This document shows, one piece after another, positions 4,207 to 21,750 of a DNA stretch of 35,488 nt. Under the pieces are notes generated by a model, which made no database searches, was not told where the DNA came from, and saw nothing but the letters and a program-made list of their open reading frames with translations. Position 1 is the first letter of the stretch. Every line of letters begins with the position of its first letter. The stretch is taken from positions 1-35,488 of IMG/VR virus record IMGVR_UViG_3300025617_000059; one strand, given 5' to 3'. Source of the DNA: a virus. The position numbers and the translations under genes are program-made.

Positions 4207-7098
4207 TCACTGAACTGAATTGACTTTCAATCTCAGCTGTGCGTCATCTTGAATTAACAACTGTCGAGCAGCTGACCTGTAGTTGCTGTGGATATTTCTA
4301 ATGACCTTCATCTTGTCGGCTTTTGTCGGAAGCTCGGCATACTCAGGACTCTTGATAATGTTTTCTAGTGCGATCAAGACCGTTCCTTCAGGGTCATAAT
4401 TGTCGCCCCCTGGTAGGCGTCCAAACTGATCCATTGAGTTTGTAGTGCGAATCCACTTGTTGTACTGCTCTGCATTGAGTAGTACGCCGTCAATCTTCTG
4501 AGGTGTCCTGCTGATGCCGTCGCCTAGATCCATCATCTCTTTGTCGACAACGCTAAACTTTGCGTCCTTGATTCTAACAGGTGACCAGAACTCCCACCAA
4601 ACGCCAGTGCCTACAGTTAACTCTTCGCCCCACTCATTAAGCTTTGGCGGCAAATCCTTGTTGAAGAACGGGTTCCTAGCTTTGGCTTTTTGCAATGCAG
4701 AATAGAATCCTCTGGCAAATGCTGGCAGCGTTGTAACGTCTTCACCTAGGAATCCTTCGGATGGCAACATCGTGTTCTTTGCTTGCGTGTCGATCTGCCT
4801 GGTGACACCAGCTGTAAAGGAGCTGACAGTTGGAGCTAGTGTCAGCGCAGCCTCTGTCACCTTTTCTCCAAGAAGCCCAAACAGTGCATCAAATTTTTCT
4901 GCACCTGATGGACGTTGCATTGCAGACTGGATTTCAGAAAGCCCTTGGAGTAATGGCATTTCAATTAAGTATTCAGCCAGGCCAACAGACATGGCCATAG
5001 CCATCTCATCTAGAGTCTCTTGGTTTGTTTCATACTGAGCGTAGTACGCAAAATCAGCAGCCATTGCTAATACGCCAGAGATAGGGTCGAACCTAGAATA
5101 TGTGATTGACTTGTAGGTGCCGTCTTCCTGCCTGATGTTGATCGAGTATGGCTGGAACCCTTGGCGGCGCATTGCAGCCCTTGCCTCTTTATCAGACGGT
5201 CCAGCTCCAAAGATCCGTATTGACTGGTCTTCTCCATCTAGGCCAAAAGCCGCATACGCAAACGATCCAAAGATAGCGGAACCCATTGCTGCTTTAGCTA
5301 CAGCAACGTCTGCCTCTCGACCACCGGCTGCTAGCTTCTTATAAAAGCCAGGGTACACAAGCATTGCCGGGCTGCGCTCTAGCGTTGCCTTCATTACATT
5401 GACCGGGGTCTTAAAGAACGGCACAAACAGTTTTGCTATCGGGTGATTGAGCGCGCCCTGCATTTGAGCAAGGAAACCATCTAAGTCACCCTGGAACGTC
5501 ATGTCTCTAGCCGCCTCAACGACAGACCTCTTGACGTCCTCAGAAGGGTTGTTAATGACGTTAGCGCGCTCCAGGGCATAAGCCTTTTTAGCATCCTCTA
5601 CTGAGCCGCCAGTCTTGATTGTCATTTCGTACATATCAGACGCACGCATGGATGCAATCTGATACAGAGTGACCCGTCCACCGATCGCCTTAAAGAACTC
5701 GTCTTCTGCAAGCAAAGCCCTACCGCCTAACCTGGCGTATATTCCAAAAGCATTGACCGCTCCAGAAATAGCGCCGTCGTCAAACATCTTCCGTGGATCG
5801 CCAGTTGTGCCGATCGCTCTGCGAGTCCTGACGTCTATTTTCGACGCGAGGTCAGATGGGGTTTCGGTCAATGCTGTTTTGCCGGCCATCATAAATGCGT
5901 CAGTCAATCCAGCTCGCATTCCTTCTAACTGAGCCAAGCCTTCTCTAGCTCTGACACGGTCCTTGTTGCCCGTGACCGTAGAGCGCAGCTTGCCAAAGCC
6001 AGACGCGACAAAAGTCTCTAGCACATTCATCGCCATGTAGGTCGCGTTGCCGGCGATGTTAACCATGTGCGTCACAGGTGATGTCAGGATTGCGTTAATC
6101 CAAACTTCCGTGATCACATCCATAGACTTAGCGTTTGTTGCCTTTTTAATAAAACGCATTTGTGCAGACGGGTCTGTGATTGCCAGGTAATGGCGTCCGA
6201 CATATTCAATATCTTGCGAGGTCTTGGCGCCGAATAAAGTCAGCTCTTCAATAACTGATGGCACTCCGCGACGCTGTAGTTCTCCGGCTAGCTGCACTGT
6301 GCGCGCTGCCTCGGAGACAGTGCCAGATAGATTCTCTGCTACCCGACCACTAACCGTCGCCATTTGTAAGGCAGCCATCATTGCTGCTTCACGCTCTGGG
6401 CCAGTTGGCATTTGGAACGCCTCAGAAAACGCTGACCGAGATTGCTTGATCAATTGACTGTACGCCAACATTCCCGCTAGGAAATCTTCTGGCGGTAACA
6501 CATCGCCTGGCTGGCGTTTTGCTAGATCAAACACAACCTGGTCTAAGCCGCGCTCTTGGGCCATGACCATCATTTGCTCAAAGGTGATCGTTCCGCGCCG
6601 AGCCTTTTCAAACAGTCCTTGGTTTGCGTCCTTAAACTTTGCCAGGTAGTCAGCGGCATCAAACTCACCGCCAGCCTCAAAGATAGCTGGGAAGTTTAAT
6701 CCTTTCGCGTATTCACCGCCGAGCTGTTCATTGATTAGCCTTAGCTCATCTGGGTCTGCTGGCGCCACGACGATTGTCCGGCCAACCTGTTGAATCGGTG
6801 GAGGTGGAGCAGCATCCATTGTGACGCGCTTCTCAGCCTCTAGCGCCCTGTCCTTAACTGCCTCTAGTCCAGACTTAATTACTGACCCAAGGCCAGCAAC
6901 CTGTACAGGCTCTGGATTAGCAATGACGTCGTCTTCTGGCTCTAAGGCATCGGGCTGGTAGGTAGCCTCAGTGGTGGCATCCTCGGCTTGCATTTGATCA
7001 ACAACAGGATCAATTGCTTCATTGGTCTTGAGCGCTTTCGTCTCCAGTGCGGCGACGATCGTGTCTTCAACTTTATCGTTTATCTTCTGCTCGATCAC
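4207..7098 (-). CDS. Large internal virion (DNA-ejection) protein
   Basis: The 963-residue protein is encoded after the tail tubular genes, the position of the T7 gp16-type ejection protein. It starts with GTG overlapping the previous stop (GTGA). Residues 1-110 are acidic and proline-rich, followed by long predicted helices. Moderately hydrophobic stretches (SPVTHMVNIAGNATYMAMNVLE; MGSAIFGSFAYAAFGL) could insert in the membrane. A segment HPIAKLFVPFFKTPVNVMK resembles one I recall from large polyvalent or ejection proteins of other phages. I see no clear lysozyme or transglycosylase motif. It probably helps form the channel that carries DNA into the cell. The exact activity is unknown. Confidence 0.7.
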   Translation of the reverse strand: MIEQKINDKVEDTIVAALETKALKTNEAIDPVVDQMQAEDATTEATYQPDALEPEDDVIANPEPVQVAGLGSVIKSGLEAVKDRALEAEKRVTMDAAPPPPIQQVGRTIVVAPADPDELRLINEQLGGEYAKGLNFPAIFEAGGEFDAADYLAKFKDANQGLFEKARRGTITFEQMMVMAQERGLDQVVFDLAKRQPGDVLPPEDFLAGMLAYSQLIKQSRSAFSEAFQMPTGPEREAAMMAALQMATVSGRVAENLSGTVSEAARTVQLAGELQRRGVPSVIEELTLFGAKTSQDIEYVGRHYLAITDPSAQMRFIKKATNAKSMDVITEVWINAILTSPVTHMVNIAGNATYMAMNVLETFVASGFGKLRSTVTGNKDRVRAREGLAQLEGMRAGLTDAFMMAGKTALTETPSDLASKIDVRTRRAIGTTGDPRKMFDDGAISGAVNAFGIYARLGGRALLAEDEFFKAIGGRVTLYQIASMRASDMYEMTIKTGGSVEDAKKAYALERANVINNPSEDVKRSVVEAARDMTFQGDLDGFLAQMQGALNHPIAKLFVPFFKTPVNVMKATLERSPAMLVYPGFYKKLAAGGREADVAVAKAAMGSAIFGSFAYAAFGLDGEDQSIRIFGAGPSDKEARAAMRRQGFQPYSINIRQEDGTYKSITYSRFDPISGVLAMAADFAYYAQYETNQETLDEMAMAMSVGLAEYLIEMPLLQGLSEIQSAMQRPSGAEKFDALFGLLGEKVTEAALTLAPTVSSFTAGVTRQIDTQAKNTMLPSEGFLGEDVTTLPAFARGFYSALQKAKARNPFFNKDLPPKLNEWGEELTVGTGVWWEFWSPVRIKDAKFSVVDKEMMDLGDGISRTPQKIDGVLLNAEQYNKWIRTTNSMDQFGRLPGGDNYDPEGTVLIALENIIKSPEYAELPTKADKMKVIRNIHSNYRSAARQLLIQDDAQLRLKVNSVQ

Positions 7099-9716
7099 TG
7101 AGTGTCTCCTGGGGTCTGATTAGATTTCGACCCTATCTTCTGGACCTCGGCATCTTGAATCTTAGCTGCCTCGTCAAAATCATCAAATGACGGAATATCT
7201 ACTTTGCCGCCAAAATAATTTGGATCATGTACAAACAGGATAACGTCAGGCTCGCCATTATTGAAGTCAGCAAAGTCAGCTTTATTCCAATTAGGCGGTG
7301 CGTATTCGTCATTCCAGCGAACTCTTGCTACTGGCCTAAAACCAGCAGTTTCGTAAATCGCAGGAAGATATGTGTCAAATGCATCTAGCTTTTTGCCGCC
7401 GGCTTGAACTGCGGCTTGGAGCATTGAGTAACCACCGCCTGAAGGCTCTGACTTTGATGCAAAGACGGCCACAATATCGCCATCAGGTTTAATGGCAAAT
7501 CCGCTGCCGTTCTCGGTTCTGAATAATCTTGCTTCAGATAGCTCTTCCGCAGATTTAATGTCGACTTGCGCCGCGTCAGCTCGGCCAGCCATAGCAGCTG
7601 TCATTTCCTGGTTATAGGTGACAGCGTCTGTCTTTGGAACTTCTTTGACGACGGGGACAGATAACCCGGCAGCTTCGTACTGACGGGCTGACACAGGGTC
7701 TGGATTAAGGACTAAAAGCCCATCTCCTCCATCCCCTTCAGCACTCGCTCGCGCGTAAGGCCCGGGTGTCGCTCCAAGGTTTTGGCTATCGCCTGTTCCC
7801 TCGGGTCCAGGTCGGCGCCCTGATCGGACGGTGCGCTGCTTGGCTCCGACACTTCTGAAGTCTGTGAGTCCCTCGCTTGCCGGTTCAACTCCAGCTTCAA
7901 CTTCATCGCTTCCGCGAACTCCTGGTCGTAACTCATTTTGTATTTTCTCCGATGCTGCTGAAAAAGACCCTGGTCGCGATGGTACGCCAAGATCAGTATA
8001 TAAGTTTTGCTCAAAGAACCACAGAACGGCCTGAGTATCTTGCTCTGAAAGATCTCCGTCACCTAAGTCATCAATGACCCTGGAAACAAACTCTTCCATG
8101 CGGGCGCGCTCCTGAAGATTTCTAGGCGCTTCCGCCAGCCCACCATCAGGATTTTTCATGCTGCCAAAGTGACGATTGTACGATCTACTGAACCAAGAAT
8201 CCTTGGTTGTTGCTTGATACCCATTAAGGTTCAAGCTGTACTTACCCGTCTTGTCGCCAAGTATCATCGACCCAAGGTGTAAGCTGTCTTTACCACCACC
8301 TACTCCACTTGGTCCGCTGCTTAGGCCAGCTGCCTTCCGTATATCTGTTAGCTCTTTAAGAGTATGCGGAGATAACCACCAATCGGCAAACCCGTCAACT
8401 CCTTTTGTTTCGACCAGATACTTAATGACTTTCATGCCAGCAGCAACCGATTGCTGCTTGGCTCCCCATCCAGCACCCTTAATGCCTTCTGTTACGGCAC
8501 CTGGGGCTGGCGGATTAAATGGTACAGAACCTGTTCTAAGGTAGCCAAGTAATGCAGCCGTGGCCGCCTTGGTGTTTCCTGGATCTACCTTCTGGCCAAT
8601 AGATGTTGGCGCCGCTAAAGCAGTCCACAGGACTCTTAAACTTTCATCGTCAGCAAGTCTCTCTAAACCAGGGATCTTTGATAAATTCTCAAAGGTCTGT
8701 CTAACATCATTGTCATACCAGCCCTTGCCGGAAGTGCCTTGCCCAAGTTGATATCTAATTTCATTTGCTGCGTCTGTTACCGCTAATGAAAAGTCGGCGT
8801 CATCATCTGGATTTAGTTTTCTACCATAGATTTGCTGGTGCTGATTGTTGAAGTAATCTGCAACATCATCAACTTTTGGCCGGGTGTTTCCCTTGCCTTG
8901 AGCAATAGTTTTTACTTCGTTTTGAGCTGCGGTTTTAACTTCATCACTTTGCCGAACGCCTACATAGAAAGCGTCGTCCTGAGTCTCCCCTAGCAACTTT
9001 TGAACGCCTACGATCACATCGTCGACTGGCTCTGTTGGGTCAAACCCAGAGCGCAATGTCGTACCAGTGCCACGCTCTGCCACACGCGCTGGCGCGCCAG
9101 CTGCGTAATCCACGGCGGAATCCTTTAACCACTTGGCGCCTTTAAGCAGCTGCTTGGCTCCAGGTATTGCATTGACAACAATCGATGACAGCTCTCCGCC
9201 GAGGTAGCCCTCGCCGAACGCTTCGACTTGCTCATCGCTAAAGCCGAGGTTCTTCCCTTGCTCTTTTAGCTTTTCCCCAACCATTGCAGACGGAACCAGC
9301 TTCAGCATTTCTAGGACGCCTTCTAGTTTCTTGCCTTCGTCTGCTGTAATCATGCCAGCTGCAATCAATGGCGGGAGACTGACTAAGTCGGGCAAAGTCA
9401 AAAGCACTGATGTTGTGAAACCTAGTGGAGCGCCAATTGCCTGAAACGCTTCACGCTCAAATATTTTCTTTTGCTCTTCCACTGGAAGCTCTGCCCTGCC
9501 GAGCATATAACTTGGGTCGGGTCGACCTGTTGCTCCAATCATTGGTTCAACGGATGTAACCTCTGGAGACTCGGCGATCTCGGCTCTCGTCGGCTCGACA
9601 GCTCTCGGAACCCAAGTAGTCATGCCGTCTTCGCCAACACTTAGGTCAAACTCATTAGAGCCAGATGACATTCTGTTGAAGCCTTGAGTCAGCGCGTCAT
9701 CAAATGTATTGCTCAT
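7095..9716 (-). CDS. Internal virion (ejection) protein with C-terminal GNAT-like domain and low-complexity linker
   Basis: The 873-residue protein is joined by ATGA and GTGA overlaps to both neighbours in the ejection block. Residues ~80-200 contain amphipathic and hydrophobic helices. Residues ~220-570 are helical. Residues ~595-675 are a Gly/Ser/Arg/Glu-rich disordered stretch. The last ~200 residues hold a compact domain (FAIKPDGDIVAVF, GGYSMLQAAVQAG, YETAGFRPVARV) resembling GNAT-like domains in polyvalent ejected proteins. The disordered stretch coincides with an internal overlapping gene (7712-7936). It is probably injected with the DNA and could act on host targets. The GNAT-like call is from pattern only. 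Confidence 0.65.
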   Translation of the reverse strand: MSNTFDDALTQGFNRMSSGSNEFDLSVGEDGMTTWVPRAVEPTRAEIAESPEVTSVEPMIGATGRPDPSYMLGRAELPVEEQKKIFEREAFQAIGAPLGFTTSVLLTLPDLVSLPPLIAAGMITADEGKKLEGVLEMLKLVPSAMVGEKLKEQGKNLGFSDEQVEAFGEGYLGGELSSIVVNAIPGAKQLLKGAKWLKDSAVDYAAGAPARVAERGTGTTLRSGFDPTEPVDDVIVGVQKLLGETQDDAFYVGVRQSDEVKTAAQNEVKTIAQGKGNTRPKVDDVADYFNNQHQQIYGRKLNPDDDADFSLAVTDAANEIRYQLGQGTSGKGWYDNDVRQTFENLSKIPGLERLADDESLRVLWTALAAPTSIGQKVDPGNTKAATAALLGYLRTGSVPFNPPAPGAVTEGIKGAGWGAKQQSVAAGMKVIKYLVETKGVDGFADWWLSPHTLKELTDIRKAAGLSSGPSGVGGGKDSLHLGSMILGDKTGKYSLNLNGYQATTKDSWFSRSYNRHFGSMKNPDGGLAEAPRNLQERARMEEFVSRVIDDLGDGDLSEQDTQAVLWFFEQNLYTDLGVPSRPGSFSAASEKIQNELRPGVRGSDEVEAGVEPASEGLTDFRSVGAKQRTVRSGRRPGPEGTGDSQNLGATPGPYARASAEGDGGDGLLVLNPDPVSARQYEAAGLSVPVVKEVPKTDAVTYNQEMTAAMAGRADAAQVDIKSAEELSEARLFRTENGSGFAIKPDGDIVAVFASKSEPSGGGYSMLQAAVQAGGKKLDAFDTYLPAIYETAGFRPVARVRWNDEYAPPNWNKADFADFNNGEPDVILFVHDPNYFGGKVDIPSFDDFDEAAKIQDAEVQKIGSKSNQTPGDTQ
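7712..7936 (-). CDS. Small overlapping (overprinted) gene inside the ejection-protein gene
   Basis: A 74-codon frame lies wholly within the gene at 7095-9716, on the same strand but in another frame. It starts MSYDQEFAEAMKLKLEL, has a Ser/Pro/Asp-rich centre and ends HPGLTRERVLKGMEEMGF. The C-terminal helix-turn pattern HPGLTxExx...GF is one I recall from small free-standing phage proteins. GGAGA lies nine bases before the ATG. Third codon positions are strongly G/C, unlike those of the host frame. In this interval the host frame encodes low-complexity residues, as expected when the other frame is under selection. The function is unknown, perhaps a minor virion or assembly protein. Confidence 0.65.
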   Translation of the reverse strand: MSYDQEFAEAMKLKLELNRQARDSQTSEVSEPSSAPSDQGADLDPREQAIAKTLERHPGLTRERVLKGMEEMGF

Positions 9717-11425
9717 TGTTGCGCCTCGATTCGTATCAGTAATGGTAAAAGCTTGTCTATTGCCTGTGTGCGCCTGGCTTCATTTGGATACAAGCCTGGG
9801 TTATTAGTAATTGCATCTAACAGCTCTTGAGCAGATAGGTTCTGCAAACTAGATATCGTCCTCAGCTCATCACCCAGCTGCTCTGCTGAACGCCTCAAGG
9901 AGTCGTTTGCCAGGTCATCACCGCTGCCTTCCAGATCCCTGATTGCGTCTCGCACAAACTGAAGCGCATCTATACCTGGGTTTGCATCCATAGCAATGAT
10001 TAGCTCGTTCTGGATCTTAGCAACTTCTTGCTGCGCGATTCTATTGACGCCAGCTGCGTTGAATAATGGTTGATCAGGCAGCCCGCGCGCACCTTTCAAG
10101 AAAGTAATCGCCTTGGTGTAAGACTGATTTTCTTGCGCCTTAATATCTGACATAAAGGTTTTGTAAGAAGAGATACTGAGGTCGCCGTCATTGAAGGCGC
10201 TATCAACATCACCTTGCGTCAACTGGTTGCGTAGCGACAAAACCTCTAGGTTGCGAACAACTTGCGGTTTATCAATTCCCGCTGTAGTCGCTGCCACCTC
10301 AGACTTAGACGCCCAAGCCGTAGGATCTTTTTTCTTCAGCTCCAAAAGAATAGACTCCATCTCTTCTCTTTCGCCGTTAAGGAACGCTACTGTAAAGCTA
10401 GCTTGTAGCTCATTTGACTCTTTAATCCTTTTCTTCTCTTTTGCTGATTCGGCTTGCGACTCCAGGCTGAACTTGTTAGACAGAGCTGCGTTCAGCTCAC
10501 CAAACAGAGTTCTGCGCTCTTGATTTGTTAATATGTCAAATGTCGCCTGGACCTCTTTGTCCTCAAACTTTTCGGTGCCGCCTTTCAATATGTTGAGCGC
10601 AACGCCAGGCTTTAACATTGCCTCATCCATCACAACACCAATCTTGGCGTCAGACACAGCCTTATCTAAGTCTGCTATCGCTTGTTTTGCGAAAGATGGG
10701 TCGTCGATTTGCATAGCGTATTCAAGGATCTTGTCCCTTGATGCCTCGATCATTTGGTCAACAGTAACAACTTCTTTTGTTTCTTCATTAACTTGCGGCC
10801 CAGCCCTGACTATTGTTTCTGCTGATCTAATGACGTTATCAACTCCAGCGCGGTAACTAATTTCTAAGTCTTTCTTTGCAGCGACAGCTTCTTGTTTAGC
10901 CGCTGCCAAATACGCTGAGTTAGAGCTAAGTCCAATTGACGCAGAAAACTGTTGCGCTGCGAGCGGGTCAATGGAGCGCAGGATTTCAGATTGAGAACTT
11001 GCTAAAAGCTGAAGCCGAGTTCCCATGTCGTCTAACGTGATCTCGCCTTTTTCATATGCGGTTTGAATCTCGGTAACAGACTTTCTGGCTTCGATCTCCA
11101 TTGACGTAGTCAGAGACGATAACGCGGCCTCCCTAGCTGTCTGACCAAACACAGTCGTCTTGTCACCAGGTACTTGTTTTGCTGGGTCTTCACCGCGTGC
11201 GATTGCATCTTTTAGCTGCTGGGCAGATGGTGCGTTGAGCGCGCCGTACTCACGACCTGTGACTTTAGCCTCGACCTCTGCTTGACGAAACGCAAAGTTA
11301 GACAGGCGATCTAACTGCTGGGACAAAACCTGACTTGTGCGCCCAGCTTCTTGAATACCGACGGTGGTCATCTGAGGGATTGATGCAGACTGGATTCCTG
11401 CTTTCTGATAGATCGGCATGACCAT
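9713..11425 (-). CDS. Internal virion (ejection) protein, helical
   Basis: The 570-residue protein lies between the small internal protein (11426-12010) and the 873-residue ejection protein, matching the position of T7 gp15-like core proteins. The sequence is almost entirely helix-forming, rich in Ala, Glu, Lys and Gln with coiled-coil stretches (~310-380). There is no membrane helix or catalytic motif. The start ATG immediately follows the TAA of the upstream gene. It overlaps the next gene as ATGA. Assignment rests on gene order, length and composition. Sequence-level similarity to a named family is not obvious to me. Confidence 0.6.
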   Translation of the reverse strand: MVMPIYQKAGIQSASIPQMTTVGIQEAGRTSQVLSQQLDRLSNFAFRQAEVEAKVTGREYGALNAPSAQQLKDAIARGEDPAKQVPGDKTTVFGQTAREAALSSLTTSMEIEARKSVTEIQTAYEKGEITLDDMGTRLQLLASSQSEILRSIDPLAAQQFSASIGLSSNSAYLAAAKQEAVAAKKDLEISYRAGVDNVIRSAETIVRAGPQVNEETKEVVTVDQMIEASRDKILEYAMQIDDPSFAKQAIADLDKAVSDAKIGVVMDEAMLKPGVALNILKGGTEKFEDKEVQATFDILTNQERRTLFGELNAALSNKFSLESQAESAKEKKRIKESNELQASFTVAFLNGEREEMESILLELKKKDPTAWASKSEVAATTAGIDKPQVVRNLEVLSLRNQLTQGDVDSAFNDGDLSISSYKTFMSDIKAQENQSYTKAITFLKGARGLPDQPLFNAAGVNRIAQQEVAKIQNELIIAMDANPGIDALQFVRDAIRDLEGSGDDLANDSLRRSAEQLGDELRTISSLQNLSAQELLDAITNNPGLYPNEARRTQAIDKLLPLLIRIEAQQ

Positions 11426-12010
11426 TTAAAAGCCTCCAGGAATCATTGAAGGCATCCCCAGGCTACTAGCTGTAGGATAAAAAGTATTCTGGACAGCTCC
11501 TGTAACACTGCCGCCTCCTGCAAAGCCGCCGACATTAGACGGAGCTGATCCAAGAGTGCCGACCGATGCGACTGCCATACCCATAGTTCCGATCGCACTA
11601 TATAAACCCTGGCGTCTAGCCTGAGACGCAGCGCTATTGTATTGAGCTGCGTTGATGTCGCCGGCAGCGATACTTAAGGCCGCGTTCTCTTCTGTCATGT
11701 AATACTCTCGCACACCCAACTTGGTGCCGTAGTCCTTGATTCCTTGAGCCGTGCCGCTATATGGATCTAGGCCACCTGACGCAGCTCTTGCAGTAACGGT
11801 CCCCAGGTTCTTGCGTAGCCGGCGCAAGACCTCAACGCCCTGCTCCTTATATTGGATTTCTGCGCGCTTGGCTTTGAGCGTCTCGGTTCTGGCTTGACGC
11901 TGATAAGCTTGCGCTTGCGCTCGACCAGCCTGAATCTGACCTAGTGCGCTAGTAGCGGATAATCCTAGCCCGATCATCTGTAATGTAGTTAGTCCTGCCA
12001 TTACTGCCAT
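11426..12010 (-). CDS. Small internal virion protein (T7 gp14-like position)
   Basis: The 194-residue protein has a short hydrophobic N-terminus (AGLTTLQMIGLGLSATSALG). A long charged helix follows (QAYQRQARTETLKAKRAEIQYKE, ~35-60), then a segment with LGTVTARAASGGLDPYSGTA and a Gly/Ala/Ser-rich C-terminus with a second hydrophobic stretch (~135-155). Small T7 gp14-like ejection proteins have this build and the same position after the tail tubular proteins. In T7, gp14 is ejected first and acts at the outer membrane; a similar role is inferred here. Confidence 0.65.
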   Translation of the reverse strand: MAVMAGLTTLQMIGLGLSATSALGQIQAGRAQAQAYQRQARTETLKAKRAEIQYKEQGVEVLRRLRKNLGTVTARAASGGLDPYSGTAQGIKDYGTKLGVREYYMTEENAALSIAAGDINAAQYNSAASQARRQGLYSAIGTMGMAVASVGTLGSAPSNVGGFAGGGSVTGAVQNTFYPTASSLGMPSMIPGGF

Positions 12011-12011
12011 A

Positions 12012-13991
12012 TTACTGTCCCACCGATACCTTATAGTCCAGAGCCAACACGTTCATCTTGAGCGGCACTGTCTGCGTAATTGTAATCTTACCTTCTTTGG
12101 TAAATCCGAGCAGAGGCCCAGTCTTTTTGATGCCTGTAAATTCTTGCACCGCTCGGTCTAGATTGTCTTCTCCAAACTGCCTAAACGCTACTTGCTCACC
12201 GTTAATAGTGACAGCCTGGGATTCAAAGTGTTCGCTGTTGATTTCTAATATCCGCTTCTTGAATCCCCGGATATTACCAGATGGCAGTCTTGGCTCTACA
12301 GGCATCGTCACGACTGTAGGTGTGTAATTCAAACCAATCGTATAACTCTCGGTTGCTGGGTCGGTAAAAGTAATCGACCCGCTGCTGACAGTCTTGTCGG
12401 CCTCGACGACACCATCTCTCACTACTTTGACAGTCTCTGCTTCTAGGTGATCTAGGCCAGAGACAGATGCAGTCGACGACCCAACGGTTGCGGTCTTCGC
12501 AGAATCTAAAGTCAAACCTTCAACAAACACCTCAACGTAGTAGACATCGCTGCCATTGATAGTTCTCTTGACCACGGCGTATGTGTCCGCGATATCGACG
12601 CCAACAGCAAGGTAGTCACCGTCTGTCGTCCACTCGGACGGAGCAATGATTTCCTGGGACCGCAACAATGTATAGCAAGCGATGCTGCCATCGTCTTCGT
12701 TGACGACCAATAGCTGATCTCCTTCATCGGTTGATGTTGCCTTGCGAACCGCAAGATCCGATGGAGATTTAAGTAAATGCGACGACAGTAGCGAGATCTT
12801 GGTTGTGACATAGCCTTGTACTGTGTCTGAGAATATGAACTCAGATAAAGCCTTGCCCTGACGCTGTACAAAGACCGTGGCGCCATCGACGTTAACTACC
12901 CGTATGCCAACCCTCGCTCCATTAGATGTTTGCTCCTGGACCGCTAGGTTGGACGGAGTGATAGGATCACCCAGAGTTTGCGGAATGTAGAACTCGCCGC
13001 CGGTAGTAAAGATCTGCAAATTACGACCAGCATACAAATCAACGATTGCATTGAATCGGCCAGTGTCTAGCGTTGCTTCAATCGCCGCGTCGTCAAAGTT
13101 TTCGCCTGGGTCAAAGTTAAAAAAGTTGCCTACCCGGCTGCCCCATATTGTAGATGGGCGCGATGATGCACCGCCAAAATACAACCGACCTTCGTAGAAT
13201 ACTGCGCTGCGCGGCCAACCCCTAGACGCTGACCAGGTATCTTCGTACCCAGTTTCCAAGTCCCAGTCGCCTGAACTGACAGCAGAGGTATCGAACAACG
13301 GCACCTCTGATATTGCTTTGACGACTGTGCCGCTAACGTAATCAATGATTCTCAGCCGCCCTTGTGGTGACACATTGATGTACTGATCGATGTGTGCAGC
13401 TAGAAATACTGAGCTGCTAGCAGTGAGCGTAATGTTGCCTGACGATGCGTCTGGAGTAATGGTTGCTGCTGGGTTGGATGAGCTGATCGTGAATGCGTGC
13501 TTAGGAACGAAATTAAAAGATAGAGTGCTGACCGTCCATGATGAGTCAGACGCGCCCCTAACAATTTTTTGTGGGGCCATCCCTTCTTGTACAACGATCA
13601 ATGTGTCTGCTGACTGCGCCCAACACATTGTAGAAATAACCGAGCTGGTAATCAATGAAACGCTTAGATAGTCATTACCGCTGCCGTTGATATCCGTGAT
13701 CAGCTCACCATCCTTGTAGACGTGCATTTGCTGATCCACAAAAATCAGCATATAGCTGTCATCTACTGAGAACTCAAACGGAACCATTCGCACAGCTGTC
13801 CCAGCAGCTGATGGCAGTGTTGAAATGTACTTGCTTCCATTGCGGCGAACAAAGCCGCCCTGGGGCTGCACAATGATGTTAGTGGCAGATTCTAGGCCGT
13901 TATAGTATTGCTGCAAGTCAATACGCGCACGCAGCTTTGGATCAAGCTCTCCAGAAGTAAAGTTGGTCTGAACTTGAACAACACGGCTCAT
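12012..13991 (-). CDS. Tail tubular protein B (nozzle), gp12-like
   Basis: The 659-residue beta-rich protein has an N-terminal signature typical of podovirus tail tubular B / stabilisation proteins: VQTNFTSGELDPKLRARIDLQQYYNGLE, then NIIVQPQGGFVRRNGSKYI. A later block contains GWPRSAVFYEGRLYFGG and PSTIWGSRVGNFFNFDPG, also characteristic. It overlaps the gp11-like gene by four bases and is somewhat shorter than T7 gp12 (794 residues). It should form the hexameric nozzle of the short tail. The identification is strong from motif pattern and order. Confidence 0.9.
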   Translation of the reverse strand: MSRVVQVQTNFTSGELDPKLRARIDLQQYYNGLESATNIIVQPQGGFVRRNGSKYISTLPSAAGTAVRMVPFEFSVDDSYMLIFVDQQMHVYKDGELITDINGSGNDYLSVSLITSSVISTMCWAQSADTLIVVQEGMAPQKIVRGASDSSWTVSTLSFNFVPKHAFTISSSNPAATITPDASSGNITLTASSSVFLAAHIDQYINVSPQGRLRIIDYVSGTVVKAISEVPLFDTSAVSSGDWDLETGYEDTWSASRGWPRSAVFYEGRLYFGGASSRPSTIWGSRVGNFFNFDPGENFDDAAIEATLDTGRFNAIVDLYAGRNLQIFTTGGEFYIPQTLGDPITPSNLAVQEQTSNGARVGIRVVNVDGATVFVQRQGKALSEFIFSDTVQGYVTTKISLLSSHLLKSPSDLAVRKATSTDEGDQLLVVNEDDGSIACYTLLRSQEIIAPSEWTTDGDYLAVGVDIADTYAVVKRTINGSDVYYVEVFVEGLTLDSAKTATVGSSTASVSGLDHLEAETVKVVRDGVVEADKTVSSGSITFTDPATESYTIGLNYTPTVVTMPVEPRLPSGNIRGFKKRILEINSEHFESQAVTINGEQVAFRQFGEDNLDRAVQEFTGIKKTGPLLGFTKEGKITITQTVPLKMNVLALDYKVSVGQ

Positions 13992-14605
13992 CCGCGCACC
14001 GCAATCAAGGTAAAGTCTTGGAATGCCTCGTTGGAGTTGTTTGCTCCATCAATGCTAGCCGCGACCCGGAAGTATCCTCCCCGGCGATTCTCAGCAACTG
14101 TGCCAAATGCCTTTTGCTCAAAATACTGAGCCTTGGTGATCTGATCCGTTACTGTCTCAGCAATCTCTGCTGCCATTGCATATTTAAGCAACTGCACAAA
14201 GTATGTAGGCAAGGCCGACTCGCCTACTGAATTCTGATAATCAACAAAGATTGTCTCTTCGTTTGTATTCAAGCTTGTGCCAAATATCTCCCATCCGTAT
14301 TGGATTGGAGCAACACTGGTTGCGCTTGTATTAAATACAGCCCTGACCCCTGACATCATGTCGCCAGGCAAGGCGTACTGATACTTCCACTCGTTTGCCG
14401 GAGTCGATGTCAGTCGGGATAGCTGCACTTTCTTAAATGACCACGACCAGGGATAGGACGCGATAATGGAATCTTTCAAATCATCATATAATCTGTCGCA
14501 GATCTGCGCTGCGTCAGTGCCGTCCGAAAACGACGAAAGAGGCGATGCCCCTAATAGAATCAATGCGTCCGAACAGATGGACAGTTTGGTATCACCTGAT
14601 GCCAT
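13988..14605 (-). CDS. Tail tubular protein A (adaptor), gp11-like
   Basis: The 205-residue protein shows the typical opening of gp11-type adaptors (LSICSDALILLGASPLSSFSDGTDAAQICDRLYDDLKDSIIASYPWSW spans about residues 8-55). The family repeatedly shows a Leu-Gly-rich first helix, a Y-pattern helix and a PWSWS motif, as seen here. A later Tyr-rich helix ends RGGYFRVA. The ATG follows a TGAGGTGAC ribosome binding site and lies just after a hairpin. The gene is coupled to tail tubular B by an ATGA overlap. It forms the ring joining portal and nozzle. Confidence 0.88.
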   Translation of the reverse strand: MASGDTKLSICSDALILLGASPLSSFSDGTDAAQICDRLYDDLKDSIIASYPWSWSFKKVQLSRLTSTPANEWKYQYALPGDMMSGVRAVFNTSATSVAPIQYGWEIFGTSLNTNEETIFVDYQNSVGESALPTYFVQLLKYAMAAEIAETVTDQITKAQYFEQKAFGTVAENRRGGYFRVAASIDGANNSNEAFQDFTLIAVRG

Positions 14606-14938: not shown

Positions 14939-15781
14939 TTATGATTCGCGGCAAGTAATGTTCACGATACCTTCGTCATCGATCGACACTGCACCAGCTG
15001 AGAACATTGAAGCAACCAGGAAACTGGTCTTTTCAGCAATGTAATCAACACGGCTGGTCTGACCCATGCCAACACCCAATCCAAGCGCATCACGATGGAA
15101 TGCGTAGACTGTGCGATCGTTAGATCCGTCGATTGGCAAACCACCTTCATCACGGTCGCCAAGTGTTACCACGTTGAAACCGAGGAATGTGTTGATGTCG
15201 CCTTGGACAAGAGCCTTCACAGTGTTGAAATCAGAAGACGTGACCTCTGTTTCACCAAGCAGCGAATCCAAAGAATTTGCATGGATAACCAATACACGAC
15301 CGTCAGCCGGTACGTTCTTGGCATCTAACGCCTTCTTTGCAGCGCGCATTTTGGCTACGTTCAAGTTTGAGTCTGTGCCTCCAATGTCGTTGCCGACAGT
15401 ATTTGGAGAAGACGCTGCCGCTAATGCATCAAGACAAACCTGATCCATGCGACGTGCAATTGCACCTGACACAACTTGTACAAGCTCTTGGCGCTCGTTG
15501 AAGTTGATTTTTTGCTGGTTGAAAATGTCTGAGTATTCTGCCGCAATGAAGTCGGACATAGTCGCAGTGACTTGCGAATATGAGACATTCAACGGAGTTA
15601 CATCAGTCTGTGGTACGCGGATAGTCGCTGTGCCTTTCCCGATCTTAGGGAATTTAACAGTCGAACCTTCGACGTTGCTACGCTCGCGTGTGAGGCCAGC
15701 CAACATACGTTGACCCTGATAGGCTTGTTTGACCTCACTGTCGAAAAGCGTAACAAAAGCGTTTGATACTTGAATCGCCAT
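14939..15781 (-). CDS. Major capsid protein
   Basis: The 280-residue protein is encoded directly after the scaffold. Features of HK97-fold capsid proteins of podoviruses are visible: an N-arm (VSNAFVTLFDSEVKQAYQG), an extended-loop-like strand pair (STVKFPKIGKGTATIRVP), a spine-type helix (QELVQVVSGAIARRMDQVCLDAL, ~100-122), and an A-domain segment with LVIHANSLDSLL and FLGFNVVTLGD. It is shorter than T7 gp10A (345 residues). An AAGGAAG ribosome binding site precedes the ATG. Its own promoter lies upstream. Identification rests on order and overall pattern; I am confident. Confidence 0.88.
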   Translation of the reverse strand: MAIQVSNAFVTLFDSEVKQAYQGQRMLAGLTRERSNVEGSTVKFPKIGKGTATIRVPQTDVTPLNVSYSQVTATMSDFIAAEYSDIFNQQKINFNERQELVQVVSGAIARRMDQVCLDALAAASSPNTVGNDIGGTDSNLNVAKMRAAKKALDAKNVPADGRVLVIHANSLDSLLGETEVTSSDFNTVKALVQGDINTFLGFNVVTLGDRDEGGLPIDGSNDRTVYAFHRDALGLGVGMGQTSRVDYIAEKTSFLVASMFSAGAVSIDDEGIVNITCRES

Positions 15782-15954: not shown

Positions 15955-16782
15955 TCAAGCTTCTCCGTGAAATTCGTAGAATTTTCGCTCGACCATGTTT
16001 GTGTATCCCATATCCTTGCCGTACTTGGGGTCACTGAGCATTGACTGGAGATCTTCCAGAGTCGTAGAGTTGCCTTCCTGGATAGAGATATCTGGGATTG
16101 AGCGCTCGCCGTATGACTCTCTGATCTTGTTCAAAGCCATGATGTAGTCTCGATTGTCAGCCTTAGACGCAATCGCATCGACTTCTTCTGATGACAAGGC
16201 ACCTGAATTACCAAGCTTGGTTAGCCACTGGTTAAGACCGCCGATGATCTTATCGGCTTTCGGTCCCAGCCTAGCCATCTCAGCCTCTTTGTTAGTCTCA
16301 ACCTTGTCGAGCATCTCACCGACATGATTCATGTAGATCGATGTGATCTGATCGAACTGGTCCTGGCTTAACCCACTTTCAGCGGCAAACTTACTAAAGT
16401 CATTGAGCATTGCATCGTCTTCTGCAACGCCATGATCCTTGAGGGACGCAATGTCGTAGTTCCCATCTTTAGGAGCTTTGTGCTTGCCAGCAGACATCTT
16501 GCTTCTCAGCTCTTGATAAGATTTTGCTAGCCCTTCTATATCAGGGCCATCAGTGTCTGACCAGAACTGATCTAAGCCAGTCATGAACTCAGGTATCTCT
16601 CCCCAATCCATCGACTCATCAATAGGGTCAGATGCCTCGTTGTCAATCAGGTGCGGCGCGTCATTGGGCTGCTCCTGATCTGTGTCTGATTCTAAGGCTG
16701 GGTTCAGCATTCCTTTGCTGCCTTCAGGCTGCGCTTGCTGGTCTTCGTTTTCGGTAACTAAGTTTTCAGCTGCATCACTCAT
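15955..16782 (-). CDS. Capsid assembly scaffolding protein
   Basis: The 275-residue, very acidic, helical protein is encoded between portal/Bbp19-like and capsid, the usual place for the scaffold. The N-terminal ~90 residues are rich in Glu, Asp, Gln and Pro and likely disordered. A segment FWSDTDGPDIEGLAKSYQEL (~72-91) resembles the block often seen in podovirus scaffolds. Long helices follow, then a C-terminal EDLQSMLSDPKYGKDMGY typical of such proteins, where the C-terminus contacts capsid. The start overlaps the previous gene's stop by four bases. Confidence 0.82.
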   Translation of the reverse strand: MSDAAENLVTENEDQQAQPEGSKGMLNPALESDTDQEQPNDAPHLIDNEASDPIDESMDWGEIPEFMTGLDQFWSDTDGPDIEGLAKSYQELRSKMSAGKHKAPKDGNYDIASLKDHGVAEDDAMLNDFSKFAAESGLSQDQFDQITSIYMNHVGEMLDKVETNKEAEMARLGPKADKIIGGLNQWLTKLGNSGALSSEEVDAIASKADNRDYIMALNKIRESYGERSIPDISIQEGNSTTLEDLQSMLSDPKYGKDMGYTNMVERKFYEFHGEA

Positions 16783-17054: not shown

Positions 17055-18614
17055 TTACACTGGAGGTTCAGCTGGTAGCGCCGCTTGCTGTTGCTGCTGC
17101 GCCATCATCATTTGCTGCATCTCCATCATCATTTGCTCTTTTTGTTCAGGTGACGTCAGAAGTTTCTGAGGTACACCCATCTTTTCGGCAACATAGGTCA
17201 ACATTTCTTCTTGGTTGATAGCCATTTGCCCAGCCTGACCAAACGCTTGAGCGATTTGGGCAAACTGCAACACCGAGTCCAAGTCCTCCATATTCTGAGC
17301 TTGAGCTAGTGGTGAAGTTGGTACGACCTTGACCTGGAGGCCATTGACCTTCAGCGGCAAGTCGATCACGTTCATTTGATCCATCACGACCAATACTCGG
17401 CGCACGATTGGAGTCATTGCTTCCGTGATCAATCTGCCATATGCCGAGCCTAAGTTTTGAGACAGTTCCTTCATGCGTTGCACGATCTCGGTCGCACTAC
17501 GCGCTGACATATTGTCTGGCGGCAACGAATCATCGTATAGCATTTTCTTGATATTCATCACCAGGTCATTAATGACCAGCTGCGATGTATTGAAGTCTGT
17601 TGCTGCGCGTAGTGGCCGCAATGATTCACCCTGCGCTCCGCCATTTCTGGCAACAGGAATAATCGCACCCGGCGTAATTTGAATAGTTTGCGGATTCAGT
17701 ACACCGTCATCAGCTGCTGTATAGACGCCCGACACAGCAAGAGAAGCGTTCTTGAGAACAAGCTCCTTGACCTTGTTGAGCGTTTTAACGTCAGGTAGTG
17801 CAGTGACTAATGGACCGCGACCATAGACCTCGCCTGGCACCTTCATGAATCGAGATACGATCCACGGCGAAATGTCCATTGTACGATAGACCAGTTCACT
17901 AGCCGCATTCTTGTCTTTGGCATGGATCAAGTGATAACAGTAGGTATCCTCATCCACGTTGAAGACCGTGGCCTCGATCAGATCGATTTCTTCATCTGGC
18001 TTTTTCTCAATGCGCTCTTGCAGCTGCGCTGGGATTTTAGCGTCTGGCCATTGCCGTTGTATCGCCTCACCCCGCAAACGCAGCTTTCTGTACACGTTAT
18101 CAACCGTGCCATGCGGACCTTCTTCTAGAGCGACCAAGTATTGCGGCACAGGGATAAACCGAACCGGCACCTCTTCATCGCCTGGTTGAATCAGCATGAC
18201 CGCCGTGCCAACACAGAGATCCAGCAGGAACTCCGACATCGCCAGGTCAAAGTTAGTCTGCCGGATCACATCAAACATTCGGGTGTTATAAACCTCCAAA
18301 GCTTCACGCACTTCAGCGCTGCGCTCTTTAGGAATCTCATTGCCAGGCTCTAACGTACACCACTCACGGTACGGCGGGAAAAGAGCTGACTGAATGCGGT
18401 TAGCAAACCGTTGCGTAGAGTTGATCGCCGTAGCATCAAACACCCGCGCCATCTTGTTCTGGCCGGCTGTCTTGCCTTCGTATTCACCCGAATACATATT
18501 GCGCTGAGGCAGTGCAAATTCGTAACACTCCTCGTAAATCGTGCGCCAACTTTCCTTTCTAGCATCAGCCTTTTCCTGACGCTTCATGATTTCCTGCGGG
18601 CTGATGCGTGCCAT
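17055..18614 (-). CDS. Portal (T7-type head-to-tail connecting protein)
   Basis: The 519-residue protein is close to T7 gp8 (536 residues). The N-terminal helix region contains WRTIYEECYEFALPQRN and INSTQRFANRIQSALFPP, which fit the bacteriophage head-to-tail connecting protein family (PF12236). Further marks are the GRGPLVTALPDVKTLNKVKEL segment and a crown-like, Gln/Met-rich C-terminus (QQMMMAQQQQQ). It forms the dodecameric ring through which DNA is packaged and ejected, and binds the terminase and gp11-like adaptor. One of the most secure identifications in the window. Confidence 0.95.
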   Translation of the reverse strand: MARISPQEIMKRQEKADARKESWRTIYEECYEFALPQRNMYSGEYEGKTAGQNKMARVFDATAINSTQRFANRIQSALFPPYREWCTLEPGNEIPKERSAEVREALEVYNTRMFDVIRQTNFDLAMSEFLLDLCVGTAVMLIQPGDEEVPVRFIPVPQYLVALEEGPHGTVDNVYRKLRLRGEAIQRQWPDAKIPAQLQERIEKKPDEEIDLIEATVFNVDEDTYCYHLIHAKDKNAASELVYRTMDISPWIVSRFMKVPGEVYGRGPLVTALPDVKTLNKVKELVLKNASLAVSGVYTAADDGVLNPQTIQITPGAIIPVARNGGAQGESLRPLRAATDFNTSQLVINDLVMNIKKMLYDDSLPPDNMSARSATEIVQRMKELSQNLGSAYGRLITEAMTPIVRRVLVVMDQMNVIDLPLKVNGLQVKVVPTSPLAQAQNMEDLDSVLQFAQIAQAFGQAGQMAINQEEMLTYVAEKMGVPQKLLTSPEQKEQMMMEMQQMMMAQQQQQAALPAEPPV

Positions 18615-19673: not shown

Positions 19674-20158
19674 CAGTAAATCCTCGCATACATCATATAG
19701 TCATACCCTTCAGGGCCATAAGCTTTCATCAGACCCTCTTCCTGAAACTTCAAGAACTTAGCCCAATTCATCGCCCGCTTGCGCTCGACACTTACCACAA
19801 TTTGGATTCTGCGTAAACCAAGCGCTGGCCCAATGCTATCAAAAAACCGACGGGCGCCTCTACACAAAAGTGTACCATGCCTGATTGATAGTCGGCCTGG
19901 GACCATCCAAGCCTCGGCATTGGTTGGCCATTTGATCTCGACTCCGAGACATAGAGCTGGCTGCATCTTGTAAAAGACCGTCCAGGCATGATCGGCGTTT
20001 GCAATCGCCTCCAGACGCGCCGGTAGATTACCCATCGCGTCAAACAGCTCTAGATCTGCCTGGCTTGGAATGATCCTCTCCATGTGCGACTCATGGAAAG
20101 GCATAAACACCAGGTCGCGCATATTGACCATCTTGGTCGCTTGTTCTGACGTCACCAT
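19673..20158 (-). CDS. GNAT-fold phage protein (T7 gp13 / DUF2833-like)
   Basis: The 161-residue protein has beta strands and helices arranged as in N-acetyltransferase-fold proteins. The AEAWMVPGR strand is followed by a helix and RIQIVVSVERKRAMNWAKFL, then FQEEGLMKAYGPEGYDYMMYAR. That ending closely matches a small family encoded near terminase or portal genes in T7-like phages, linked to T7 gp13. No acetyl-CoA-binding loop (Q/RxxGxG/A) is evident, so catalytic activity is doubtful. The start ATG overlaps the large terminase stop region. No strong ribosome binding site is visible, so translation is probably coupled. Confidence 0.65.
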   Translation of the reverse strand: MVTSEQATKMVNMRDLVFMPFHESHMERIIPSQADLELFDAMGNLPARLEAIANADHAWTVFYKMQPALCLGVEIKWPTNAEAWMVPGRLSIRHGTLLCRGARRFFDSIGPALGLRRIQIVVSVERKRAMNWAKFLKFQEEGLMKAYGPEGYDYMMYARIY

Positions 20159-21750
20159 ATTGAAAAATCTGTCTTCGCTGTAAATTGTCCACCACGCGCT
20201 CCGGCTGCACCGTACCGCCCGCCGTAGCCCCTAGTCATGACCTTATGCTCACCGCCACCGAGCATGAGATAGCCAAACGCATCACCAACGTGTGAATGCT
20301 CATTCTTATTCGGCGCATCCCTAAATCGCTCAGTGCCACCGCCGACGGCCACGCGCTTGAAATGATAACCACCGGCTAATGATTTACGCAGACGCTGACA
20401 ATCCTTGTGTATCTGCAAGCCAGCTCGGCGATCAATGTACCTGTTCATAGGCATCGCTCCCGCTTCACGGCGCACCTGGAAGTCGTTCGATGCTGTTGGT
20501 CTGGCGTTCATGCCGATCGTTCGCAGATGATCAAACGCCGTGACCTCAAAGATTTCATCACGTTTCTGTCCAGCCGGGTCACCCCAGACCAGTACATCCA
20601 TCTTTGGATAGTTCGCATTGATCTCGTGCAGCAGCATTAAGCCGAACCGCTCCAGGCCCATGTCGTCGGTCACGATCTCCTTGAGTATGTTCCAGCGCCC
20701 ATTAGCCAGGCGCTGACCAAAGACAGCCGCCGGAGTCAAACCAAAGTCGAGTCCAATGTGCAGCGGCAGAGAGATGTCGACCTGGAGACTGTCATCCGAC
20801 ATTGTCGAGTCGTCATACTCTGGCCACACTGGTCGACCTTCCTGTACATACACATATTCGCCGCCGGCATAGCAGCGAATCCAGTCTAGGTTCTTACCGC
20901 CGAGCTGCTGATCGTAGTATCCATTGGGTAGGTTGTTGATGTTCTCGGCTGTCGGGCTGACCTTCCAAAACTTACCAGCCGCCGGTACGGCAGCCGGCTC
21001 ATCGGGTAATGCCTCAATGACACCGCCAGGCTGCTTGAAGAACTCCCACTTGTACTTGCCGCGCACAGGTTCCTTCTCTGCAAGCCTGAACCACCAGTGA
21101 TCATCGTCCATTGGGTTGGTGTCCATCCAAATACCGCGCCAGGGACAACCGCCGTTACCTTTGGTTGGATAACGACCGACGCGGTGTGTCAATCCTTGTA
21201 CGACAGCTAACGGCAGCTCTCTGGCCTCGTTCACCCAGGCACCAGTCAATTCTAGAGACAGTAGCTTCCTGACGTCCTTCGGTTGATCAAGCGCCATAAA
21301 GATCACCTCACAATTGATGCCGGCTGCGTCACCGCGACTCGGTAATTTGATGTGATGACTGATTGGTGGCGACCAGCGCATTGGACCCCAGACGTTCTCT
21401 GGGAATAACTCCAACCATGTCTTAATCGTCGTTGTACGCAGCTCAGGGTAGCTGTTTCGCACGATCACGAACCGAGAGTAGCGGATGCCGTCTTTTGGCG
21501 ATGGCGGCTGTTTGACGGCGCGCAGCATGATCTCGGCAGCGCAGCCGTATGACTTACCTGATCCTACTGGCCCCATCAGGCCGCGCACAAACGAATCGTC
21601 ATGCAAGAACTTCCAGGTTGTCGGCGCACCAGAAAAATCTAGATCTAGACCGCCGAGGATGTCGTCAGAAGAGGTGTTGCTGGTCTTCTTCTGCCTTCTG
21701 CTGTTGGTCGACCTCTGGCTCTGGTCCGTCGCTTTGCTCGTTCGTGCCAT
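20152..21750 (-). CDS. terL: Terminase large subunit
   Basis: The 532-residue packaging motor ATPase and nuclease has Walker A GPVGSGKS at 60-67. A Walker B-type segment reads GAWVNEAREL (170-179, Glu175). A coupling-type motif reads MDTNPMDDDHWW (209-220). The RNase H-like nuclease domain shows GLDFGLTP (Asp335), WGDPAGQKRDE (Asp391) and HVGDAFGY (Asp490). All expected catalytic residues are present and the length is normal. The first ~45 residues are basic and low complexity and overlap the small terminase gene by 86 bases. A later start would reach Walker A, so this start is retained. Confidence 0.95.
   Translation of the reverse strand: MARTSKATDQSQRSTNSRRQKKTSNTSSDDILGGLDLDFSGAPTTWKFLHDDSFVRGLMGPVGSGKSYGCAAEIMLRAVKQPPSPKDGIRYSRFVIVRNSYPELRTTTIKTWLELFPENVWGPMRWSPPISHHIKLPSRGDAAGINCEVIFMALDQPKDVRKLLSLELTGAWVNEARELPLAVVQGLTHRVGRYPTKGNGGCPWRGIWMDTNPMDDDHWWFRLAEKEPVRGKYKWEFFKQPGGVIEALPDEPAAVPAAGKFWKVSPTAENINNLPNGYYDQQLGGKNLDWIRCYAGGEYVYVQEGRPVWPEYDDSTMSDDSLQVDISLPLHIGLDFGLTPAAVFGQRLANGRWNILKEIVTDDMGLERFGLMLLHEINANYPKMDVLVWGDPAGQKRDEIFEVTAFDHLRTIGMNARPTASNDFQVRREAGAMPMNRYIDRRAGLQIHKDCQRLRKSLAGGYHFKRVAVGGGTERFRDAPNKNEHSHVGDAFGYLMLGGGEHKVMTRGYGGRYGAAGARGGQFTAKTDFSIW

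Follow-up and report, generated by a model that had tools for sequence, protein, structure and literature searches.

The host gene and the frame nested within it

The DNA analysed here, referred to as the window, is a 35.5-kb viral contig (35,488 nt) with the gene layout of a T7-like podovirus (Table 1). A gene for an 873-residue virion protein, the host gene, contains in its +1 frame a second, much smaller gene, the nested gene. Tail tube and internal virion protein genes lie next to the host gene, with matches of the neighbouring genes to phrog_418 and phrog_6651. Because it sits among internal virion protein genes, the host gene is inferred by position to be part of the ejection module. That its product is present in particles and ejected is likewise an inference, drawn from this position and from the "minor capsid protein" annotation of relatives in Microbacterium phages. 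It is noted that in one related contig (L018, IMGVR_UViG_3300004369_000079) the host gene, judged by eye, lies after a portal-like gene and before a scaffold-like one. This is the position of a minor capsid protein and not the ejection module, so the host gene is found in differing virion layouts.

Table 1. Features of the window and their positions
Feature	Position	Strand	Remarks
Host gene, 873-aa virion (ejection-type) protein	7095..9716	-	neighbouring genes match internal virion proteins
Host middle domain, mainly helical (host residues about 250-596)	7929..8969	-	AlphaFold2 model; ends just within the nested-gene start
Host segment predicted disordered (host residues 598-666)	7719..7925	-	pLDDT <50; approximately the overlap
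Host C-terminal acetyltransferase-like domain	7120..7712	-	phrog_2563 core at 7317-7610, E 5.9e-13
Nested gene, 74 aa (MSYDQEFAEAMKLKLELNRQAR...HPGLTRERVLKGMEEMGF)	7712..7936	-	+1 frame of the host gene; conserved in homologues, purifying selection
Shine-Dalgarno GGAGA	7946..7950	-	nine bases 5' of the nested ATG
Terminase	20152-21750		window gene order
Head-tail adaptor	17055-18614		window gene order
Scaffold-like	15955-16782		window gene order
Major head protein	14939-15781		window gene order
Tail proteins	13988-14605 and 12012-13991		window gene order
Internal virion protein	11426-12010		window gene order
570-aa gene	9713-11425		adjoins host gene
Internal virion protein	4207-7098		adjoins host gene

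The nested frame runs from an ATG at 7934-7936 through 74 codons to a TAG. Its third-position G+C content is 0.77, compared with 0.42 for the host frame. An earlier sequence-only reading had proposed the frame, its ATG, the GGAGA nine bases upstream and the G/C-rich third positions; all of these held, and the coordinates were exact. A longer version of the frame could begin at a GTG at 8062, but the ATG is the likely start because many homologues show stops just upstream of it. When the host gene of the window is shuffled among synonymous codons, the nested frame stays open in 3.1% of the shuffles. This figure is the point in favour of a chance open frame without function. Openness in the window alone is mildly unusual and unconvincing by itself, and the decisive evidence is comparative.

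In an AlphaFold2 model of a host fragment (15 sequences), pLDDT falls below 50 at model residues 374-428 and 432-442, within the segment that corresponds to host residues 598-666. The stretch of predicted disorder thus matches the overlap almost to the residue. The earlier claim that the host interval is a tolerant low-complexity linker is therefore borne out, as a prediction. The domain beyond it is similar to phage proteins annotated as acetyltransferases (E about 1e-6 to 1e-3). A Foldseek search with a 649-residue host model gave no significant match, the GNAT fold included.

An AlphaFold2 model of the nested product from 43 sequences (mean pLDDT 69.5) has helices at residues 3-25, 45-56 and 62-71 and a linker of low confidence. 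With moderate confidence, the model predicts an N-terminal helix, a flexible Ser/Pro-rich linker and a C-terminal helical hairpin ending PGLTxEE..M.EMGF. Searches of the nested protein against PHROGs, Pfam, NCBIfam, PDB sequences and Foldseek returned chance-level matches only; a CUE/UBA-like resemblance was dropped (E above 7). Free-standing small phage proteins like those suggested earlier were not found, and the free-standing relatives that were found are bacterial.

Conservation and selection of the nested frame

In a search of IMG/VR with the nested protein, all 20 loci recovered (20/20) were nested in a host-gene homologue, and the frame was +1 in each. A second scan was made with the host protein, using the patterns [ED]GFAD[WF][WM] and [FY]NNGEPD; since these derive from host domains outside the overlap, the scan is a fair test of whether the nested frame accompanies the host gene. 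It kept 80 of 212 relatives, 79 of which include the overlap region (the other 132 are outside the count), and the nested frame was present in 79/79, with host proteins down to 42% identity. In a third scan, for which the query was a divergent nested form, 40 of 40 loci were nested and none free, and no free-standing nested gene was found in any viral contig examined. Across homologues the product ranges from 67 to 84 aa, and frame, start, Shine-Dalgarno site and stop are preserved despite the changes in length. A Shine-Dalgarno-like site precedes each of 40 distinct nested starts (40/40; 34 ATG, 5 GTG and 1 TTG), compared with 24% of other ATGs in the same host genes. It should be mentioned that this count is inflated by the relatedness of the loci. 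The nested gene has its own ribosome binding site and start throughout this set.

The nested frame also occurs in a cultured short-tailed phage, Limnohabitans phage DC33 (PMC12195039), within a gene of 3,125 aa and with a GGAG seven bases before its ATG. The DC33 nested protein was matched by profile at E 8.6e-7, where earlier tblastn had given only E=2; apart from that hit, phage and plasmid records searched by tblastn with nested proteins yielded nothing useful. The DC33 record annotates the large gene only, leaving the nested gene unannotated. The taxonomy line of this record (PQ492659.1, L021) says Inoviridae, whereas the paper describes a short-tailed icosahedral member of Caudoviricetes with a 39-kb dsDNA genome.

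In the Microbacterium phages Caron and Barnstormer (L022:4175-4316 and L146), a 47-codon +1 frame (MALPITEEERLAF...TDEALEAAILSGW) lies at the equivalent position, in the linker of the minor capsid protein. Fourfold sites differ between the two phages at 1/33 positions within this frame, compared with 50/286 (p=0.04). The frame could be a far relative of the nested gene, but the evidence is only suggestive. No nested frame was found in Haloarcula tailed virus 2 or in Methanobrevibacter virus vir075. The same was true of three stand-alone acetyltransferase loci of other phages (Streptomyces and Pseudomonas phages were checked). Proteins of phrog_2563 and phage proteins annotated as acetyltransferases match the host C-terminal domain, but the stand-alone versions checked lack the nested frame. 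The overlap is therefore not tied to the acetyltransferase-like domain by itself.

Selection acts on both frames. Among 21 close pairs, the host frame shows differences at 44/776 fourfold sites inside the overlap versus 1115/4961 outside (p=7e-34), with lower variation inside in 20 of the 21. A second host class gave 19/206 inside versus 1077/2516 outside (p=7e-25), so that variation is four to five times lower inside the overlap in both classes. The compared pairs share ancestry; the p-values overstate independence and are indicative only. Site-class analysis in the manner of OLGenie (PMC7531306) gave a nested-frame omega of 0.21 (bootstrap 0.13-0.31) in the overlap, with control values of 1.14 for the third frame and 0.81 for the +1 frame elsewhere in the gene. 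The host-frame omega is 0.43 in the overlap versus 0.14 elsewhere. Both frames are thus under purifying selection, the nested frame more strongly. The earlier reading would have been refuted by stops, frameshifts or missing constraint in homologues; the result was the opposite, with the frame intact and constrained across 7712-7936. Its placement of a small gene inside an ejection-protein gene held as well, the frame being conserved and selected and the virion-module context supported.

These data bear on three alternatives to a second protein with its own start. The first is that the mRNA carries a structure or regulatory signal that causes the constraint. Low synonymous variation in the host frame, taken alone, would fit any overlapping element. 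However, substitutions that are silent in the nested frame occur often, even where the host protein is changed by them (dNS 0.123 versus dNN 0.026). Such a frame-specific pattern is a protein signal and not a generic constraint on DNA or RNA. Frame, start, Shine-Dalgarno site and stop also survive length changes, and bacterial copies, described below, preserve the protein in other surroundings. We consider this alternative very unlikely. The second is that ribosomes slip out of the host frame instead of initiating separately, so that the product would be a virion protein with an alternative, shorter tail. In its favour, no stop interrupts the nested frame in the 42 codons before its ATG in the window. 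Against it, a stop lies 0-7 codons before the nested start in many homologues, the start codon and Shine-Dalgarno site are conserved, and the bacterial copies stand alone with their own starts; there is very little room left for this explanation. The third, the chance open frame raised above, is all but excluded, being contradicted by all the comparative evidence, including the nested omega and the conserved free-standing homologues. Considering all of this, the interval 7712-7936 on the minus strand very likely codes for a real protein, in DNA that also encodes, in another frame, the linker of a virion protein; its expression is inferred from sequence.

Bacterial homologues and modular evolution

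Stand-alone homologues of 73 aa, each with its own Shine-Dalgarno site and start, are found in one genus of marine Rhodobacteraceae, where 9 of 22 genomes gave matches, one of them partial only. Among close pairs of these copies omega is 0.04-0.12, and numerous stops interrupt what was formerly the host frame. The chromosomal locations of the copies differ; one has a tyrosine-integrase-like gene as its neighbour, and most have a second small gene next to them. A second matching bacterium, a gammaproteobacterial MAG, carries an ordinary nested copy (L049). Sampling of the order (391 genomes), the class (385) and the class of this second match (274) yielded no further lineage. The phage form has a wide distribution and the bacterial form a narrow one, from which transfer from phage to bacterium is inferred to be the likelier direction. 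Since the bacterial copies exist without the virion protein, the nested product can be useful without it, and outside any overlap.

Several features of the bacterial loci are recorded here as observations. The second small gene, of 134-137 aa (MTNVITLPERE...), usually adjoins the stand-alone homologue (L053, L056-L063, L149-L153). Each of the two stands behind a similar leader (ACTTGTRNGCCTTG...ACTAAAGCGGAG), forming a dispersed cassette. At L065:2024-2545 a different ORF (MLKEKVFEVVPWPINGF...) starts behind a similar leader-derived peptide (RRGIGPKALKREKS), which suggests that several small genes share the leader. A single-cell genome contig of Rhodobacteraceae (L050:4001-4197) holds a 197-bp intergenic decayed copy, 88% identical to that of phage locus L028. 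It spans exactly codon 3 to the stop, with a premature TAG and no flanking virion-gene DNA.

Among the phages, the two halves of the nested gene follow the domains of the host protein. In hosts with another C-terminal domain (L125-L127), the N-terminal half of the nested product is kept and the PGLT...MGF half is lost. In hosts with another middle domain (L132-L144, L157-L195), the same C-terminal half is joined to a different N-terminal half (MKQQDN...KVGAPFL). Thus, the N half travels with the host middle domain and the C half with the acetyltransferase-like domain. This co-variation could reflect functional matching or plain linkage. The latter could explain it because each nested half adjoins its matching host domain. 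In L125-L127 an unrelated C-terminal domain (...DMPHDPTNPKVKAAYEDLIRQT...AVHDAFGHGLEG...) takes the place of the acetyltransferase-like domain, which suggests that virion-borne effector domains can be swapped.

The sequence-only reading had further suggested that a small gene entered, or evolved within, the linker. The order of the two frames is unresolved; codon usage as a test of the older frame favours the nested frame in 11 of 27 and does not decide. That reading also understated the case, which is one of an overlapping gene that is old, modular and shared by all sampled members of the host-gene family.

Possible roles and comparison with known systems

In the mechanism we infer, the nested gene is most likely translated from its own Shine-Dalgarno site and ATG on the late ejection-operon mRNA. 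The host protein would tolerate it because the overlapped segment is a disordered linker between the middle and acetyltransferase-like domains. The nested product may partner the host virion protein in assembly or loading, its N half fitting the middle domain and its C half the C-terminal domain. This role is our leading guess, an inference that we hold tentatively, as more doubtful than secure; the bacterial copies, which occur apart from the virion protein, count against it.

The main rival, which we rate slightly lower, is that the nested protein acts on the bacterium, in host takeover or superinfection control. Its location would then provide only late expression with the ejection operon, and bacteria would have taken it up for phage defence or regulation. 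The conserved free-standing copies in Rhodobacteraceae, at varied chromosomal sites and under strong purifying selection, support this view. However, a mobile anti-host gene would be expected at varied positions, and no free-standing copy was met in the viral contigs examined. The tracking of a host-protein domain by each nested half also speaks against it. Returning to the partner role, a bolder and less probable version is possible, in which the nested protein chaperones a virion effector as part of a co-evolving two-protein module. Since a cut at one point in the DNA divides both proteins, an exchange of host domains would also re-match the nested protein. Rhodobacteraceae would have domesticated it as a stand-alone factor, possibly interfering with phage assembly or ejection.

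The literature searched contained no account of this overlap, consistent with the earlier suggestion that it had probably never been described. The nested gene is present in the whole sampled family, yet even in a cultured phage the annotation lacks it. Gene callers tend to discard frames that lie within others, and for this reason the deeply conserved out-of-frame genes of tailed dsDNA phages are poorly catalogued. Recombination that swaps the domains of one protein swaps the halves of the other, which provides a natural experiment on overlapping genes, and the cultured phage DC33 makes direct tests possible.

Nested out-of-frame genes of phages are a known kind, exemplified by Rz1 and by E and B of phiX174, to which the nested gene likely adds a new family, apparently unannotated until now. 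T7 gp14, gp15 and gp16 form an ejection module, and the host gene similarly lies among internal virion protein genes; T7 is not known to have a gene of the host-gene type at that position. Internal initiation in a phage gene would give a second protein here, as in lambda C/Nu3, where a scaffold (an assembly factor) is encoded inside the protease gene, and as in Ms6 lysA with its internal endolysin (PMC3111421). Those two systems are in frame, whereas the nested gene uses a different reading frame. In the Rz/Rz1 spanin genes of phage lambda and its relatives, Rz1 is a lipoprotein for lysis and both products are needed. The arrangement here resembles that pair: the smaller gene has its own start and lies entirely within the larger one, in the +1 frame. 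In contrast to Rz/Rz1, the outer gene here encodes a virion protein, and the nested product is unrelated in sequence, without a cysteine or a transmembrane appearance. An identity as an Rz1-type spanin was rejected, since without a cysteine there is no lipobox cysteine, and there is no family match. The phiX174 genes, E within D and B within A, belong to a ssDNA phage with a size-limited genome and share with the present case out-of-frame nesting in structural or replication genes. Unlike them, the nested gene resides in dsDNA tailed phages, in host genes of up to 2,700 codons (with the larger DC33 gene given above), and its overlapping halves are exchanged together with the domains of the host protein.
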